NCBI RefSeq assembly: GCF_030065545.1
Contig: NZ_JASJNC010000004.1
Coordinates: 62,001 to 126,000, forward strand
Reading direction: 5' to 3'
DNA from: Marinicella marina
Lineage (GTDB): Bacteria > Pseudomonadota > Gammaproteobacteria > Xanthomonadales > Marinicellaceae
DNA length: 64,000 bases
A program made the translations under genes and the position numbers. The first letter of the stretch is position 1. Every line of letters starts with the position of its first letter. The notes under the pieces were generated by a model that saw nothing but the letters and a program-made list of their open reading frames with translations, searched no databases and had not been told where the DNA came from. Below are positions 7,037 through 55,042 of this stretch, in pieces.

Positions 7037-7822
7037 TCAGTTACTCTCAAGCAGAACCAAGTCTGATTGGCTATTAAAATAAAACCACCAACCACTGGTG
7101 AGGCCATCTGGTCCCAAGTCTCGGTCATCACCTTCAGAACAAGAGTTTCCTCCAGGAAGTAGATCAAACAATGTTTGACCGCCCACCAGTGGTACATCAT
7201 TCGGAAATTCTATGGTTTGGGCCACCGCCTCAGAAATAAACCCCCTGTGCAGACCCTGATCTAAGGTGAGGCCGCCTGAGTAGCGTGCAGCTTGCTGATA
7301 ATCTTCTAACTCAATGTTGATACCATTTAAGATCAAAGTGGTGCTGACTGGTGCAGTTGAATAACAAGGCGCTTGGGTAGATTCAACCGCAGGGCTGTAA
7401 CCAGAGGTGGTACCATCAATAGTAGCTAAACATGAATCCACTTGATTGGCCTCAGTACTGATACCAGACACTGCAACAACACCCGTTGTACATGTCAGAG
7501 AGTCAATACACAAGCCGTTTATTAAGCTGGAACTGAGACTTTTGCTGTTAATATACTGTGGTTGATCGGTATTGAATTGGGTATTCAAACTGGTATCTAG
7601 AAAACCGTCTCCATCACCGTCTTGTTCAATTTGAGTCAATAAAATACCATTGAGTGTGTCAGTGATGTCATTACAACCAAAAAAATCAGTAAATAAGTGA
7701 GGGTCCATTAAGCTCAAAGCGTTTACTCTGGTTGCTATTAATGTCTCAAACTCATTGGTAAAAATATCTTCAGCATTTGTGTGGCTGCTGATTATCAACA
7801 ACATAACAAACAGTTTTTTCAT
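7037..7822 (-). CDS. Exported protein of unknown function with a DIFTNEFE motif after the signal peptide
   Basis: A 261-residue protein with a signal peptide (MKKLFVMLLIISSHTNA). The mature N-terminus begins EDIFTNEFE, which resembles the tag found on other exported proteins in this window (LIYLNGFE, FIFLSSFD, LIFADGFD), although those are at or nearer the C-terminus. A calcium-binding-like DGDGDGFLD stretch is near residue 70. Several cysteines (GCN, LCIDSLTC, SCLA, PCYS, SCSEG) suggest disulfides in the periplasm or outside. The protein ends with SGWWFYFNSQSDLVLLESN. No family recognised. The next gene in the same direction is over 60 bases away, so it may be monocistronic. Confidence 0.78.
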   Translation of the reverse strand: MKKLFVMLLIISSHTNAEDIFTNEFETLIATRVNALSLMDPHLFTDFFGCNDITDTLNGILLTQIEQDGDGDGFLDTSLNTQFNTDQPQYINSKSLSSSLINGLCIDSLTCTTGVVAVSGISTEANQVDSCLATIDGTTSGYSPAVESTQAPCYSTAPVSTTLILNGINIELEDYQQAARYSGGLTLDQGLHRGFISEAVAQTIEFPNDVPLVGGQTLFDLLPGGNSCSEGDDRDLGPDGLTSGWWFYFNSQSDLVLLESN

Positions 7823-18588: not shown

Positions 18589-21462
18589 ATGAAATTTATT
18601 ATCATGTTCGTTGTGATGTTCACAGCGAGTTTATCTGCCGTTGCAGATGTCAAACAAGAATTAGGTGCGGATCAGCGCGTTGATTACACCAAGCTCGTCG
18701 AACAATATGGCGGACCTTGGGATGACCGTAACTACCAACTCACAGCTGATGACTTATCAGTTATTCCTGAAAACGACCAAGTTTTGAGAAATGTTCCATT
18801 GTTTTTCAAAGTTTTAGTAAGAAAGAATGCACCACATTTAGGTGACTTTTATAACAGAGAGACTTACCAATCATTTTTGAGTATGTATGGTGGATTAATT
18901 GTAGACGGACACTGGTACAAAGAGGGCTTGGGCTTATTCAGGCATCCTAATGACTTGAATGGCAAATCAGATCCAGAATTCAGAGGTGGCATCGTTGATC
19001 CAGACTTCGAAATCTTGGTTGACCAAGGTGCAGAAACCACACTTGAATTTAATCCTGATAACAACATGCAAGTCGTTGCTGGTGCTAACGCCAACGGTGG
19101 ACAAAGTATGTATTATTCTACTGATGGTGGTGAAAATTGGACTCTATCGCAAGTAAACCCTGATGATTCGTGTTGTGATCCGACTGTTGATTGGTCTACC
19201 ACAGACGTAGTTCCACAACGGGTTTATCAAGCCGAATTAGAAGGTTGTGGATTTGGCGGATGTAATATTCGTGCCACATTTTCAGAAGACGGAGGACAGA
19301 CTTGGGCGCCAATGGTTGTTATTGATGGTGATGCTGCCAATGACAAAGAGTTCATCCACGTCGATAGGTCACCATCTTCTCCATACAAGGACAATGTTTA
19401 CATAACATACCACAAAGGAAATGTTATGCAATTTGCAAAATCTGAAGACTTTGGAGCCACGTGGACAACTCCAGTTGCGGTAGGTACTGATACCGGAATT
19501 GGTTCTGACATCACTACTGACTCTGCCGGTAACGTTTACTATTTTTATCCTGGTTTAAATGGTTCTGGAATTAACTTGCTTAAATCTACCGATGGAGGTG
19601 ACTCATTCGAACCTGTGGTTCAAGTTACTCCGATTCGAGGCAGATTTGATTTCCCAATTCCTGCCATGGAAACAAGGGAGGTGTTCATTTATACATCGGT
19701 TGATGTTGACTCAAATGATAACATCTATGTTGCAATCACCGATGAAACTGCCGATAGTACTGGCGGTGGAACAGGCGCTGCTGCAGCAAACCGTGGAGAA
19801 ATCAGGGTGTTTAAATCAACTGATGCGGGAGCTACATGGTCTGAATTACCTAAGCCACATCCTGAAGACGGTGAGCTATCCGGTGGTTCTGATAATGCCA
19901 TTGATAGATTTCACCCATGGTTGATGGTTGCTGAAAATGATGCTATTCATATTGGTTTTTATGACACCAGGAACTCAACCAATCGTACAGGTGTTGACTT
20001 TTATTACAATGTGTCTCTTGATGGTGGTGCTTCATGGTTACCACAAGGAGCACAACGATACTCTACTCAGACTTCATCAAACATTGGTGATAATTTTGAA
20101 TGGGGTGATTACAACGGACTGTCAGTTGTTTTAGATAAAATCGCATTCAGTTGGACTGATAACCGTGCTAGCTCAGTTGATTTCGTGGTTGGACTTTCAA
20201 ACAACCAATTCGGCGAACCAACATTTACATTGGCGGCAAGTCCAACCTCAATTGAAGTTTGTTCTGGTGATGTCGACAACACTGTAACGGTAACAGCCAA
20301 CGATATTCAAGGCTATCCTGGAACCATCACTTTAAGCGAGAGCGCTACCCCTGGTTACGTTCTTAATGGTGCTTTCTCGACTAATGCAACTACAGCTCCG
20401 TTCAGTTCAGATTACACGTTTGATGTTGATGGCAGTGGAACAGTGGGTACTGAAACCATAACAATCTTAGCCTCTGGCGATGATATGGGTACAATTACTG
20501 AAAGAACTGTCGATATTGACGTTACTTATTCTCCAGGCACTGCAGGTGCATCTACACTGATGATGCCTTCAGATGGTTCTACAGGTGTTAATCCAACACC
20601 TACATTTACTTGGTCGGCTGATGCAAATGCCACCAATTATCTGATCGAGGTTGCTACTGACGATTTGTTCAACAACATTGTAGTTTCAGAGACTGTTGCA
20701 ACTAACTCATACACTGCTGACAGTGATTTAGCGACCAGTACAGATCATTATTGGAGAGTAACTTCACAGAGCCCATGTGGTGATTCTGTGAGTTCTGTAT
20801 TCATCTTTACCACACAGGTAGCACCAGGCGATTGTCCAATTGGTACTTCACAGGTCGATGTCTACTCATATATATTTGACGATATTGTAGAACCTGCAGC
20901 TGATTTGATTTTCGCTGATGGTTTTGATGGCCCAATTGCTACACCTTGGGAAATCCAAACTGCCAGTGGTGAAACTAACTGGTCACTACAACCTGTTGGC
21001 GAAGGTGGAAGCTTAGCGTATCAAGCTGATGACCTACCAGTAGTAAATGACACATCTTTGGTTTCTCCAGTCATGTCATTACCAGTAGGAGTTGGCCCAT
21101 TGACATTGAGGTTCTGGAATACACAGACTATTGAAGATAATGCTGGTACTCAATGTTACGATTCTGCAATGTTAGAAATATCAGTTGATGGTGGTCCTTT
21201 TGTTCAAGTTACAAATGCAGACATCATCAATGATGCATATGACGGTCCAATTACCGGTGGATTCGATCACCCAATTTCAGATAATAGAAATGCTTGGTGT
21301 GGAGACCCACGCCCAGAGACTGTTTTCAATGTCAATGCAGATGACAATGCTGGCAGTGATGTCCAGTACCGCTTCAGAATGACTTCAGATTCGTCTGTTG
21401 GTCGCCCTGAAGGCTGGGCCATTGATAATGTTAGAATCACTGGCTGTGAATTGCCAGACTGA
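18589..21462 (+). CDS. Large secreted Asp-box (BNR/sialidase-repeat) protein with FN3-like and jelly-roll-like regions
   Basis: A 957-residue protein with a signal peptide (MKFIIMFVVMFTASLSAVA). Six Asp-box motifs (S-x-D-x-G-x-x-W type) lie between residues about 180 and 500: STDGGENW, SEDGGQTW, SEDFGATW, STDGGDSF, STDAGATW and SLDGGASW. This indicates a six-bladed sialidase-like propeller; sialidase catalytic residues cannot be assigned, so enzymatic activity is not claimed. A FN3-like domain (about 660-745) begins MMPSDGSTGVNPTPTFTW. After ADLIFADGFDGP comes a jelly-roll-like C-terminal region (about 785-957). It is flanked by its own promoter and a strong terminator, so it is monocistronic. 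Confidence 0.82.
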   Translation: MKFIIMFVVMFTASLSAVADVKQELGADQRVDYTKLVEQYGGPWDDRNYQLTADDLSVIPENDQVLRNVPLFFKVLVRKNAPHLGDFYNRETYQSFLSMYGGLIVDGHWYKEGLGLFRHPNDLNGKSDPEFRGGIVDPDFEILVDQGAETTLEFNPDNNMQVVAGANANGGQSMYYSTDGGENWTLSQVNPDDSCCDPTVDWSTTDVVPQRVYQAELEGCGFGGCNIRATFSEDGGQTWAPMVVIDGDAANDKEFIHVDRSPSSPYKDNVYITYHKGNVMQFAKSEDFGATWTTPVAVGTDTGIGSDITTDSAGNVYYFYPGLNGSGINLLKSTDGGDSFEPVVQVTPIRGRFDFPIPAMETREVFIYTSVDVDSNDNIYVAITDETADSTGGGTGAAAANRGEIRVFKSTDAGATWSELPKPHPEDGELSGGSDNAIDRFHPWLMVAENDAIHIGFYDTRNSTNRTGVDFYYNVSLDGGASWLPQGAQRYSTQTSSNIGDNFEWGDYNGLSVVLDKIAFSWTDNRASSVDFVVGLSNNQFGEPTFTLAASPTSIEVCSGDVDNTVTVTANDIQGYPGTITLSESATPGYVLNGAFSTNATTAPFSSDYTFDVDGSGTVGTETITILASGDDMGTITERTVDIDVTYSPGTAGASTLMMPSDGSTGVNPTPTFTWSADANATNYLIEVATDDLFNNIVVSETVATNSYTADSDLATSTDHYWRVTSQSPCGDSVSSVFIFTTQVAPGDCPIGTSQVDVYSYIFDDIVEPAADLIFADGFDGPIATPWEIQTASGETNWSLQPVGEGGSLAYQADDLPVVNDTSLVSPVMSLPVGVGPLTLRFWNTQTIEDNAGTQCYDSAMLEISVDGGPFVQVTNADIINDAYDGPITGGFDHPISDNRNAWCGDPRPETVFNVNADDNAGSDVQYRFRMTSDSSVGRPEGWAIDNVRITGCELPD

Positions 21463-51179: not shown

Positions 51180-52415
51180 TCAATCAAAACTGCTGAGAAA
51201 GATAAAGTCATTGACCATTTCGACTGCCCCTTTGTCACACAATGCTGAGCCGTTGTTATCACCATCAAGTGGCCGTGCTTTACCTGATTGATCTTCATTG
51301 ATACAATCAAGCGGGTCAGCCGAGTCTATGGCAGGACTTTGATAACTCAATGGGTAATATTGTTGGTAATTACTGGCCAATCGAAGTGGCCCAAGCGCAG
51401 CATCAACACCCTCCACGTCTGCGGTTCCAACCAAACCACAACTGTCGTCATCAGAGAGGTTATAGCCATCACTGATGATGGAATTGGTAACCCTACAATT
51501 CCCCCCAACATTGGTAGCTAAAATAGAATTCTTGATGGTGACATTACCCACCACACCTATGGGCTCGTTAAAAGCAATTGTAGAGAAATGGACTTCGATG
51601 AAACCTGGGGTTGAAAATGGCAAGTCACTTGAAGCTGCAAATAAACCTCCATAACGGGAGGCTTGGTTGTTGGTAATGGTCGAGTTAATGATCAAAGCAT
51701 TACCGGATTCAACATAGATAGATCCGCCATCGGCACCACCACTGCCAATGGTGGCTTGGTTGCCACTGACTGTGGTTTTATCAAGCACCAACTCTGCGCC
51801 CAGATCGATGATAATTGCGCCGGCATATGACGCAGTGTTACTAATCAACAGTGATGATGTTACTTGGCACAAAGCTTGTGATTCGTAACAATACATGGCA
51901 CCCCCTTCAAAACTGGCCTCATTGTTTTCAACACGTACACGGTTCAAATTCAATACGCCATTGCTCGCAATGGCACCGCCTGAACCATCCACATTACCAC
52001 CTTGTAAAGTCAAATCATTCAAAGTCAATTGACCCGTTTCTTCAGGGGTGTCATTGACCGTGAAGAAACGCATCTGAGGCGCTGAATCGTCAATGCTTAA
52101 CACTGAATCGTTGCCTTCAATGATGATGGCAGTGGTTACTCGGGGCAATGCATTGTTGCCGATACCGTTATAATCAACTTGATTGAAAGTGATGGTGACA
52201 GCCGTGGGTAATACTATGGTATCTTGACCTGAACCGGCAGAACAGCCATAAAATGATGCATCTGACTCGGCGGCTCTGATCGCAGCCCGTAAAGTACAAA
52301 ATTGGTTGTTACCTAGACTGCCGCTGTTGGAATTAACCACTATGACAGCCGCATTGAGCTCAAATACTGCAATCATACTCAGGTACGCAAATACCACAAA
52401 CTTACTTGTTTTCAT
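51180..52415 (-). CDS. Secreted right-handed beta-helix protein (choice-of-anchor-Q-like) ending FIFLSSFD
   Basis: 411 residues with a signal peptide (MKTSKFVVFAYLSMIAVFELNA). The first part carries FCTLRAAIRAAESDAS, the CxLRxAIxxA element seen at the start of many extracellular parallel beta-helix proteins. Repeats follow, with GGAIASNGVLNLNRVRVENN and GGSIYVESGNALIINSTITNN. The end of the helix domain is RPLDGDNNGSALCDKGAVE. After that comes only MVNDFIFLSSFD and the stop, resembling the short tag on the M23 peptidase nearby. Function unknown; likely surface-associated or released. Confidence 0.85.
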   Translation of the reverse strand: MKTSKFVVFAYLSMIAVFELNAAVIVVNSNSGSLGNNQFCTLRAAIRAAESDASFYGCSAGSGQDTIVLPTAVTITFNQVDYNGIGNNALPRVTTAIIIEGNDSVLSIDDSAPQMRFFTVNDTPEETGQLTLNDLTLQGGNVDGSGGAIASNGVLNLNRVRVENNEASFEGGAMYCYESQALCQVTSSLLISNTASYAGAIIIDLGAELVLDKTTVSGNQATIGSGGADGGSIYVESGNALIINSTITNNQASRYGGLFAASSDLPFSTPGFIEVHFSTIAFNEPIGVVGNVTIKNSILATNVGGNCRVTNSIISDGYNLSDDDSCGLVGTADVEGVDAALGPLRLASNYQQYYPLSYQSPAIDSADPLDCINEDQSGKARPLDGDNNGSALCDKGAVEMVNDFIFLSSFD

Positions 52416-52495
52416 AAGAAACTCCTTGTCTTAATTGCATCATCAAAATGTTTATATATTTCGAAGACTGCATTGGTTATAAAATTTTTATCTGA

Positions 52496-53896
52496 TTAAA
52501 TTGGTTGAACCCCAGCGCCATAATCAAACACCACGGCCAGTACCAGCACCGCAGCAGCTGCTCCCATCAATTTTAATATCAACGGCAGACAAAACCTGAA
52601 CCAAGCGTTATAAGGGACACCGGCCATACCAATGATGCCCATCAATACCGCATTGGTTGGAATGATCATGTTAGAAAAACCATCACCAAATTGATAGGCC
52701 AAAACTGATATCTGACGATTTACCCCAATGATGTCACCCACTGGCGCCATTAACGGCATGGTGACATAGGCTTGACCACTGCCTGACGGGATAAATAGAT
52801 TCAGAACCGATTGCATGATGAACATGCCTACCGCAGCCAATTCAGCACCCAAATATGACAGAGGCATGGACATGGCATGTACCAAGGTATGCAGTATTTG
52901 ACCGTCTTCCATAATCAATGCAATACCACGAGCCACACCGATGAGGATGGCTGTGGTGGCCAATTCTTGCACCCCTTCGATGAATTTATTGGCAGCCATA
53001 TCCGCACTGAGCTTACCAACCACAGCAGCAAAAACACCCCAGACAATAAACATGGCGCCTAACTCATATAAATACCATCCTCTTTCAGATATGCCCCAAA
53101 CAGCAACCACAATGGTTGCCACCAAGCCAAATAATATCAAACGGTGTCTGTTATTGAGCTGTGGGTAATCATGTTGTTCCTTATCCTCCAGTGGACAAGC
53201 CAAACCATGCACATATGACTTTGATGGATCAACTTGAACCATTTTGGCGTATTTCCAAACATGGTGAAAACCAATCAACACAAAGGGCAAAAATATGGCC
53301 AAGCGCAGCCACAAACCAGAATACAACGGCACATCGGCGATTTGTTGTGCAATCATCACGGTGAAAGGGTTGAAAGCAGAAACGCCATAGCCAATACCAT
53401 AGCCAGTCACCACCATCCCCACCGCGGTCATGGCATCCAGCCGCATGGCCTTACACAAACCCACCAGTATGAGCACGAAAGGTATGTATTCCCCGGCTGT
53501 GCCAATGGCTCCTGAGGCCAGAGCAAAAACAAATATAACCATGAAAATGAGCATGTGTGGCTTTTCACCAAAACGCTCTAGCATGCTACCAATCAGTGCG
53601 TCGATGGTGCCAGTGGCCCTGGCAATTGCCAATACACCACCAATGATGAAAACAAAAAATATGATGTCTTGTGCCGCGGCCAATGCCCGCGGGATAGCAA
53701 TCAAAAAATCAAACAAAGACAAGCGCTTTTGTGTTTCAGCAACCTCATAAGTGCCTGCTACAACAGCTTCACGTCCGTTTTCCAAGGTGATTGTCTCAAA
53801 AAAGCCTTGCGGCACAATCCAAGTGGCGATGAAGGCAATAAACATCATGCCTAACAACAAAATAAGGGTATGCGGTACTTTAAATTCTTTTTTCAT
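52496..53896 (-). CDS. YfcC-family membrane transporter (C4-dicarboxylate/arginine-type carrier)
   Basis: A 466-residue protein with about 12 hydrophobic segments. It starts with KVPHTLILLLGMMFIAFIATWIVPQGFF, typical of the YfcC/DcuC-like superfamily. Other family blocks are FIIGGVLAIARATGTIDALI, ASGAIGTAGEYIPF, GIGYGVSAFNPFTVMIAQ, NLFIPSGSGQAYVTMPLMAPVGD and a final FGDGFSNMIIPTNAVLMGIIG. The family moves carboxylates or basic amino acids with ions; the substrate here is unknown. It is monocistronic between two exported-protein genes. Confidence 0.88.
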   Translation of the reverse strand: MKKEFKVPHTLILLLGMMFIAFIATWIVPQGFFETITLENGREAVVAGTYEVAETQKRLSLFDFLIAIPRALAAAQDIIFFVFIIGGVLAIARATGTIDALIGSMLERFGEKPHMLIFMVIFVFALASGAIGTAGEYIPFVLILVGLCKAMRLDAMTAVGMVVTGYGIGYGVSAFNPFTVMIAQQIADVPLYSGLWLRLAIFLPFVLIGFHHVWKYAKMVQVDPSKSYVHGLACPLEDKEQHDYPQLNNRHRLILFGLVATIVVAVWGISERGWYLYELGAMFIVWGVFAAVVGKLSADMAANKFIEGVQELATTAILIGVARGIALIMEDGQILHTLVHAMSMPLSYLGAELAAVGMFIMQSVLNLFIPSGSGQAYVTMPLMAPVGDIIGVNRQISVLAYQFGDGFSNMIIPTNAVLMGIIGMAGVPYNAWFRFCLPLILKLMGAAAAVLVLAVVFDYGAGVQPI

Positions 53897-53950
53897 TCAA
53901 TTTGACTCAAATATTATTGTATTCATAGAAAACCGATTTATTTAGCTGTC

Positions 53951-55042
53951 TTACTCAAAACCATTGAGATAGATTAAATCAATCAGTCCAGATGTGTTAT
54001 TGGGCAGATTCAACCAGCCGGGACAAACCACATTATTGGCGGGTAACATGGTGTAGTAGGAGGTGTCACAATCAAAATCATAATTCCCTTCGCCAGCATG
54101 ATGCATCCAACTGGTAAAATTAATGTTGGACTCATCAATCAAAACGGCATCACCAGCAGTGTCCCAAACCGCCACATGAACGTGCGGCCCAGTCGAGCCA
54201 CCACCGTTACACAAGGCTTGGGCTTCGTTGTCAGCATAATTGGCAAGCGCTTGGTTATCAATAACCGCGCTTTGATCGTTCACTTGTATGTTATCCAAAT
54301 GATAATAAGATGTTTCCCAACCATTGGGGTGTATCACGGTCATCGAACATGAAGACCAAACCCTGGCGATACCCGCTTGTGCAGCACTCACCCAATAAGC
54401 AGAGGTGTCATCGCCCCAATCATCGAACCCACCCCAAAAATCCAGTGCGTTTCTCACCGATCCAGAACCCCCATTTCTATGCACACCGCCGCCACCCCAA
54501 AACTCACCTCTTGGCCACGGCGGCTGTAAGTAATTAAATAAGGTTGCAGCGCCAGAAAAGTTTTCATCTGAGCTTTGGCGACTGCGGCTCAATTCAGCAC
54601 TGAATTCAGGCATCAGGCCAAAGCTGTTGCTCACAGAGCTGATGGCAATACTTGCAGCCAGTGGATTGCTCTTATTTTGAGCAAAAATTTCATCCAAACC
54701 AGCCGCAATTTGCCAAACCAGGTCTTTATTCTCCTGACTGGCAACCACCGCTTGGTTATTGAATGCAGCTTTTACCATGCCTATTAATACTTTGGGGTGT
54801 ATAGACTTCATCGCGGACCAAGCCGCTATGGTTTCATTCAATGGCATCAATTCAGGTGCTTGAGAACTTAAGTAGTCTAGGGGATCAAAACTCAGTTTTT
54901 CACTGCTGTTGAAGCGGAAGTGACTGTTATCAACAATGGTGGGGCCATCATAAACAGCCGACAGAATTGGGCCTTGGTAACTGAAGTCAGAAGCCATTGT
55001 AAATTGACTGACCACAAGGGATAACAAGAGCAACTTACGCAT
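53951..55042 (-). CDS. Secreted M23 metallopeptidase, LasA/beta-lytic type, with C-terminal LIYLNGFE
   Basis: 363 residues: signal peptide MRKLLLLSLVVSQFTMA, a propeptide-like region (about 20-165), then the peptidase domain. Zinc-site motifs are HRNGGSGSVRNALDFWGG (first His, near residue 187, and Asp), SYYHLDNI, and GPHVHVAVWD (near 287). The PWPRGEFWGGGG-type start is typical of beta-lytic/LasA peptidases, which cut glycine-containing peptides and lyse other bacteria's cell walls. The protein ends CPGWLNLPNNTSGLIDLIYLNGFE. The final 8 residues have no role in the fold and look like an appended tag. Confidence 0.88.
   Translation of the reverse strand: MRKLLLLSLVVSQFTMASDFSYQGPILSAVYDGPTIVDNSHFRFNSSEKLSFDPLDYLSSQAPELMPLNETIAAWSAMKSIHPKVLIGMVKAAFNNQAVVASQENKDLVWQIAAGLDEIFAQNKSNPLAASIAISSVSNSFGLMPEFSAELSRSRQSSDENFSGAATLFNYLQPPWPRGEFWGGGGVHRNGGSGSVRNALDFWGGFDDWGDDTSAYWVSAAQAGIARVWSSCSMTVIHPNGWETSYYHLDNIQVNDQSAVIDNQALANYADNEAQALCNGGGSTGPHVHVAVWDTAGDAVLIDESNINFTSWMHHAGEGNYDFDCDTSYYTMLPANNVVCPGWLNLPNNTSGLIDLIYLNGFE

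Follow-up and report, generated by a model that had tools for sequence, protein, structure and literature searches.

A short C-terminal peptide tag on exported proteins of Marinicella marina and its co-occurrence with a GspC-type type II secretion system

Introduction

A stretch of 64,000 nucleotides of the Marinicella marina genome (assembly GCF_030065545.1, contig NZ_JASJNC010000004.1, positions 62,001 to 126,000), referred to here in its entirety as the window, encodes two neighboring exported proteins of unrelated fold, a β-helix protein and an M23-type protein, whose C termini carry similar nine-residue segments, and the locus raises the question of what this shared ending is for. The segment, termed the tag, recurs on dozens of unrelated exported proteins of the same genome, stands where related genomes have known sorting tails and co-occurs across the order with a GspC-type type II secretion system (T2SS). 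Its probable role is that of an address label for the cell surface, of a type not described before.

Tag copies in the window

The copies in the window and the proteins carrying them are located as follows.

51183..51209, minus strand: C-terminal tag DFIFLSSFD of the β-helix protein, read from the sequence, with the stop codon at 51180-51182
51216..51404, minus strand: choice_anch_Q domain of the same protein, residues 338-400 (NF041518, E 4e-10, 39.8 bits, cut-off 25)
51180-52415, minus strand: coding sequence of this tag carrier, an exported right-handed β-helix protein of 411 amino acids with a signal peptide
53954..53980, minus strand: C-terminal tag DLIYLNGFE of the M23 protein, read from the sequence
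54161..54343, minus strand: M23 peptidase region, residues 234-294 (PF01551, E 1.1e-5, 26 bits, slightly below the cut-off of 28.7)
53951-55042, minus strand: coding sequence of this tag carrier, an exported M23-type protein of 363 amino acids
1..223, minus strand: 5′ part of a choice-of-anchor B gene truncated by the window start, the full-length C terminus, EVDLIFIDGFD, lying outside the window
20902..20928, plus strand: internal tag copy DLIFADGFD, residues 772-780 of an Asp-box protein (coding sequence 18589-21462), followed by a further C-terminal region
7745..7771, minus strand: tag-like EDIFTNEFE immediately behind the signal peptide of a 261-residue protein (coding sequence 7037-7822), read from the sequence and a weaker match

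The near-identical endings of the two neighbors, the internal copy in the Asp-box protein and the copy behind the signal peptide of the 261-residue protein had all been claimed in an initial annotation of the DNA and are read as given there, and its prediction that the protein cut at position 1 would bear the tag is borne out by the full-length choice-of-anchor B sequence. In this truncated protein the TIGR04312 match spans residues 61-427 of 442 and the choice_anch_B profile ends six residues ahead of the tag. The choice_anch_Q profile of the β-helix protein stops at residue 400 of 411 with the tag starting two residues on, and DFIFLSSFD aligns with the tags found in 15 further choice_anch_Q proteins. 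In the AlphaFold model of the β-helix protein (mean predicted local distance difference test score, pLDDT, of 71) the tag is a low-confidence coil lacking secondary structure; the model of the M23 protein has a mean pLDDT of 38, derives from four sequences only and is too poor for use. An unrelated membrane transporter gene (52496-53896) separates the β-helix and M23 genes.

Genome-wide census of the tag

Coverage of the 3.46-Mb genome (23 contigs) came from pattern searches, from the loci bearing tags and from 400 kb of sampled sequence. Over the whole genome, a degenerate C-terminal pattern finds 52 matches compared with 6 for a reversed control, and the motif without a stop gives 64 compared with 5. 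When the motif is relaxed a little, the fetched loci yield 72 tagged proteins, of which 58 have strict copies. The tag, D-[LVI]-I-F-x-[DN]-G-F-[ED], forms the exact C terminus in 45 of the 72, lies inside the last 30 residues in 67 and is placed elsewhere in five. The consensus of the strict copies is D(57) [L37 V14 I7] I(57) [F53 Y5] x [D29 N20] G(49) F(58) [E33 D25]. The pattern proposed initially, [DN]-[LI]-[IF]-[FY]-x-x-x-F-[ED], describes a real motif but is too narrow at position 2, which in relatives is freer than [LI] (D-R/A/P/T-I-F...), and the proposed C-terminal position holds for most copies with the qualification that 0-24 further residues may follow.

The 58 strict copies are encoded by 58 different DNA sequences specifying 46 different peptides, and therefore it is the peptide, not the DNA, that is conserved and under selection; shuffled exported proteins predict only ∼0.17 strict motifs genome-wide. 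A DNA-repeat origin of the tag is ruled out by the same diversity of DNA sequences. Strict tags also occur immediately behind signal peptides, at residue 42 of L130:5893-9762 (minus) and residue 48 of L160:4677-5165 (minus).

Restriction to exported proteins

Comparison of exported with cytosolic proteins, proposed at the outset as a way to judge the tag, drew on 391 open reading frames (ORFs) taken from the window and from 20 stretches, each of 20 kb. The tag is present near the C terminus in 5 of 84 soluble signal-peptide proteins and in none of the 252 ORFs without a signal peptide (p 9e-4), signal peptides being assigned by a simple, home-made rule. This rule is passed by 63 of the 72 carriers; one of the nine that fail is cut at the locus end, and visual inspection of the other eight suggests a start codon further on, a signal that is short or, in L109, one of the twin-arginine (Tat) type. 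Carriers therefore share with T2SS exoproteins the prior export by Sec or Tat. The carrier in L109 (301-1584, minus), a DUF1501-type protein, would arrive in the periplasm already folded because of its Tat signal.

Neither hydropathy nor inspection by eye revealed a helix combined with a basic tail within the final 45 residues of the carriers, and no PEP-CTERM, GlyGly-CTERM, MYXO-CTERM or IPTL-CTERM tail model is among the NCBIfam matches listed for them. No C-terminal membrane helix is apparent on the carriers, which agrees with the initial description of the tag as transmembrane-free.

Carrier families and replacement of known sorting tails

The folds of the 72 carriers are unrelated and include FG-GAP repeats, β-helices, S8, M14, M36, M64 and M23 peptidases, endonuclease I, GSDH and DUF1501 proteins. 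Choice-of-anchor families are, by their curators' intent, domains that precede different surface-sorting signals. NCBIfam assigns choice_anch_Q to 11 carriers, choice_anch_J to two and choice_anch_I, B and F to one each, together with M36 models termed rhombosortase-dependent (five), myxosortase-dependent (four) and type IX secretion system (T9SS)-dependent (two), these matches overlapping, and one ExeM/NucH match. In the choice_anch_Q, J, I, B and F and the M36 carriers the tag is thus located behind surface-protein domains whose anchor varies, and the carriers are also rich in peptidases that elsewhere bear GlyGly-CTERM, MYXO-CTERM, LPXTG or T9SS tails. The commonest families of the 75 untagged exported proteins in the sample are housekeeping types, with no choice-of-anchor family among the 25 families listed.

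The tag takes the place of known tails behind one and the same domain. In other genomes of the order choice_anch_Q proteins end in the tag (DAIFANGFEN, DVIFADGFEQG, DELFADGFD, DRIFSDGFEA and NQVFRDGFE), and a choice_anch_Q locus of genome G393 ends in LPVPTLDRIGLIVGSGLLALMGLFGLRRRRQ, which is IPTL-CTERM-like, with a similar helix-plus-arginine tail present in G628 and G737. An ortholog of the M23 protein, 49% identical, keeps the tag as NIFANGFE behind a changed linker; more distant homologs have no tag, and no M23 relatives were found in named genomes. This exchange of tails on choice_anch_Q and the retention behind the altered M23 linker mark the tag as a module added behind folded domains. 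That it is the last strand of one defined domain, the alternative named in the initial annotation, is ruled out by the unrelated carriers, by the profiles ending before the tag and by the coil in the β-helix model.

Association with a GspC-type T2SS

In a first look at 53 genomes, the tagged ones have two GspD secretins over the cut-off and many untagged ones have only the longer Xps-like one. The extra system in the window genome, T2SS-A, is a gspC-gspD-gspE-gspF operon in which GspC has HR (PF11356) and PDZ domains; in the Xps-like cluster, T2SS-B, the corresponding small protein has no PF11356 match. The Xps-like cluster is complete, and T2SS-A is known from gspC, gspD, gspE and gspF. The T2SS-A operon (L206:10776-16259) lies between the tagged genes L206:2452-4407 and L207:48-1376, ∼17 kb apart, and is followed by ftsE and ftsX, an arrangement also seen in several relatives.

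The association was tested for PF11356 against a tag counter allowing all synonymous codons in 219 genomes of the order that are at least 90% complete, with at least five tag matches per genome defining a tag-rich genome. PF11356 is present in 56 of 59 tag-rich genomes compared with 35 of 160 others (p 4e-24), so that the co-occurring transporter envisaged in the initial annotation is found to be a GspC-type T2SS. The contrast recurs at smaller scale: in family f2 the only two tag-rich genomes, G455 (27 matches) and G600 (18), hold the only strong GspC matches; in f3 GspC is present in seven of seven tag-rich genomes and in two of the remaining ones; the same is seen inside family f189; and all 11 Lysobacterales genomes reached via tag matches have GspC. 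The GspC-type T2SS looks necessary, but not sufficient, for tags. G384, which belongs to the same family as the window genome, is complete at 4.7 Mb and, unlike the rest of the family, lacks tags, a GspD secretin and choice_anch_Q proteins.

Distribution and longer forms

Among the named genomes with D-x-IFADGFE at or close to the C terminus are those of Dokdonella, Marinicella litoralis, Wenzhouxiangella, Pseudofulvimonas, Aquimonas, Tahibacter, Chiayiivirga and Rudaea, all Lysobacterales (Xanthomonadales). No other family stands out in a class-wide gammaproteobacterial search made with a narrower pattern that misses TTR leucine codons. A longer C-terminal form, IFADGFESGDTSAWTFAVP, is found in Thermoanaerobaculia and other Acidobacteriota, and one M. 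litoralis protein ends in the longer form IFADGFESGDVSSWSMTCP. The extended motif, IFADGFESG-x4-W-x4-P (L233, L255, L230, L213 and others), is distributed over Acidobacteriota, one deltaproteobacterial metagenome-assembled genome (MAG) and this M. litoralis protein. Chloroflexota have the same words at the start of an internal region of at least 200 residues, which the internal copy of the Asp-box protein resembles, and it may be from the first strand of a domain of this type that the tag is derived.

Comparison with known systems

One of the closest known systems is GlyGly-CTERM/rhombosortase, in which a C-terminal tag is likewise found on numerous exoproteins of unrelated kinds, M36 peptidases and ExeM-type nucleases among them; the Vibrio carriers are secreted by the T2SS and kept at the surface (PMC3237569). 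The present tag differs in being nine residues long and in lacking both a transmembrane helix and a basic tail; as many as 24 residues may come after it, and since it is sometimes N-terminal, cleavage is unlikely. The PEP-CTERM/IPTL-CTERM exosortase tails (PMC1569441) occupy the same place behind choice_anch_Q in related genomes, but consist of a membrane helix and arginines, whereas the present tag is soluble. The type IX C-terminal domain of Bacteroidota is, like the tag, a transmembrane-free C-terminal signal of unrelated cargo, M36 and choice-of-anchor proteins included, for a dedicated outer-membrane system; it is, however, a folded immunoglobulin (Ig)-like domain, 70-80 residues long and removed by cleavage, in contrast with a short peptide. 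No Por-secretion tail is among the matches listed for the carriers, and the tag directly follows unrelated domains. The secretion determinants of PelI/Pel3 and VesB resemble the present case in that an exposed, flexible nine-residue loop of PelI contacts GspC and GspD and folded substrates are recognized in the periplasm, but they are protein-specific and composite (PMC7949064, PMC12369372), as opposed to a linear motif common to ∼70 proteins.

Proposed function and alternative explanations

The reading we favor, and hold with moderate confidence, is that the tag is a linear sorting signal that routes folded exoproteins through T2SS-A to the cell surface, where many carriers would probably stay. 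Carriers would be exported over the inner membrane through Sec, with Tat the apparent route of one or more, and fold in the periplasm, displaying the tag as a short unstructured segment that is usually C-terminal. T2SS-A, with its GspC, would recognize the tag, most plausibly via the periplasmic domains of GspC/GspD, and carry the folded protein over the outer membrane, many carriers probably remaining on the cell surface. Recognition by T2SS-A, a binding site on GspC/GspD and surface retention are steps that we infer. Tags immediately behind signal peptides (L130, L160 and, more weakly, the 261-residue protein) make binding likelier than cleavage or transpeptidation. It is known that folded proteins are T2SS cargo and that recognition is periplasmic, that the GspC PDZ domain and GspD touch the nine-residue loop of PelI and that VesB secretion requires the EpsC PDZ domain (PMC7949064, PMC12369372). 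In Wenzhouxiangella AB-CW3 the proteases are cell-bound and the medium has no activity, with outer-membrane anchoring assumed by the authors (PMC7691419), which would fit surface retention. The transmembrane-free sorting or attachment tag suspected in the initial annotation is accordingly upheld as the best reading of a motif that is confined to unrelated exported proteins, has no helix, replaces known tails and co-occurs with a GspC-type T2SS.

Several observations weigh against this reading. Kinship of the genomes inflates the p value of the association, testing and discovery drew on overlapping sets of genomes, and the simplicity of the signal-peptide rule counts here as well. G477, G412 and G427 are tag-rich with no PF11356 match (two are fragmented MAGs), and conversely genus g282 of family f190 and some f2 genomes have a GspC-type T2SS with no tags or few, the g282 member G393 showing the IPTL-like tail. 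Among the Acidobacteriota and the deltaproteobacterial genome that show the long form, nine of nine have secretins and none has a PF11356 match; Chloroflexota have neither secretins nor a PF11356 match. No conserved extra or dedicated gene is seen next to T2SS-A, and a few tags are internal or N-terminal.

The main rival is a separate surface receptor. The tag would then be an attachment motif rather than a secretion signal, with T2SS-A reading domain structure and a receptor at the outer membrane or surface binding the tag non-covalently, perhaps by β-strand complementation. We regard this as possible though rather unlikely: choice-of-anchor domains precede anchoring signals elsewhere, the AB-CW3 proteases are cell-bound (PMC7691419), and the words of the tag resemble the start of the longer Chloroflexota region, so that a strand deprived of its domain could complete a receptor, but neither a receptor nor a conserved additional gene beside T2SS-A was found. 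Another conceivable reading is that the tag is what evolution has left of the first strand of a jelly-roll-like domain (IFADGFESG...W), with no sorting function of its own; in its favor are the Chloroflexota region, the extended terminal form known from Acidobacteriota and from one M. litoralis protein, and the internal type in the Asp-box protein of the window. This is improbable, since a remnant would decay, whereas dozens of unrelated proteins keep the tag at the very end with different DNA, and it leaves the limitation to exported proteins and the T2SS-A association unexplained.

A quality-control or stability tail for a periplasmic PDZ protease or chaperone of the DegP/DegS/Prc type is suggested by the suitability of PDZ domains for short C-terminal hydrophobic-acidic peptides and by the relationship of the GspC PDZ domain to those of DegS and Do proteases. 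It is very improbable in view of the near-universal occurrence of periplasmic PDZ proteases, which the tag does not share, of the housekeeping character of the families listed for untagged exported proteins compared with the extracellular types among carriers, and of the residues after the tag and the N-terminal copies, which are ill-suited to a free-carboxylate signal. A disguised form of an outer-membrane β-signal, of a type IX tail or of one of the known CTERM classes would likewise be C-terminal, and a β-signal has alternating hydrophobic residues. However, the last residue of the tag is acidic (Asp or Glu) and not aromatic, the carriers are soluble folds and not barrels, no Ig-fold tail of 70-80 residues is present, and neither a C-terminal membrane helix nor, among the NCBIfam matches listed, a tail model is apparent, making this the least credible explanation.

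Significance

T2SS cargo has no common linear sequence according to recent papers (PMC7949064, PMC12369372), and cargo choice is a long-standing puzzle, which the tag opens to direct tests using a short peptide. The NCBIfam and Pfam matches listed include no model that describes the tag, and in the literature searched by motif string no paper prints the motif with this meaning, the hits being accidental, personal names for example. There is a real chance that the signal is categorically new. More tentatively, it may be a linear, transferable T2SS signal read by the periplasmic domains of GspC/GspD, with ∼70 unrelated substrates in one species, a presence in many Lysobacterales genera and a longer version in Acidobacteriota. 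If the sorting reading is true, a linear T2SS-linked signal of a kind that the field holds not to exist would be in hand, much of the surface proteome would become predictable from sequence in Marinicella, Dokdonella, Wenzhouxiangella, Tahibacter and relatives, the cell-bound proteases of the group could be explained, and a compact tag for surface display would be available.

Unusual arrangements of the tag

The protein L161:4918-6210 (minus) has a tandem double tag, DLIFRNGFEDEFIFANGFEGTPQPPLCPSF, at its C terminus, and the same arrangement is present in another genome in L222 (IIFKNGFEDFIFADGFE). Two near-identical tagged genes are located at contig ends (G000 C7:3484-3509, L027, and C12:346-371, L028), probably representing a recent duplication or a repeat that broke the assembly.

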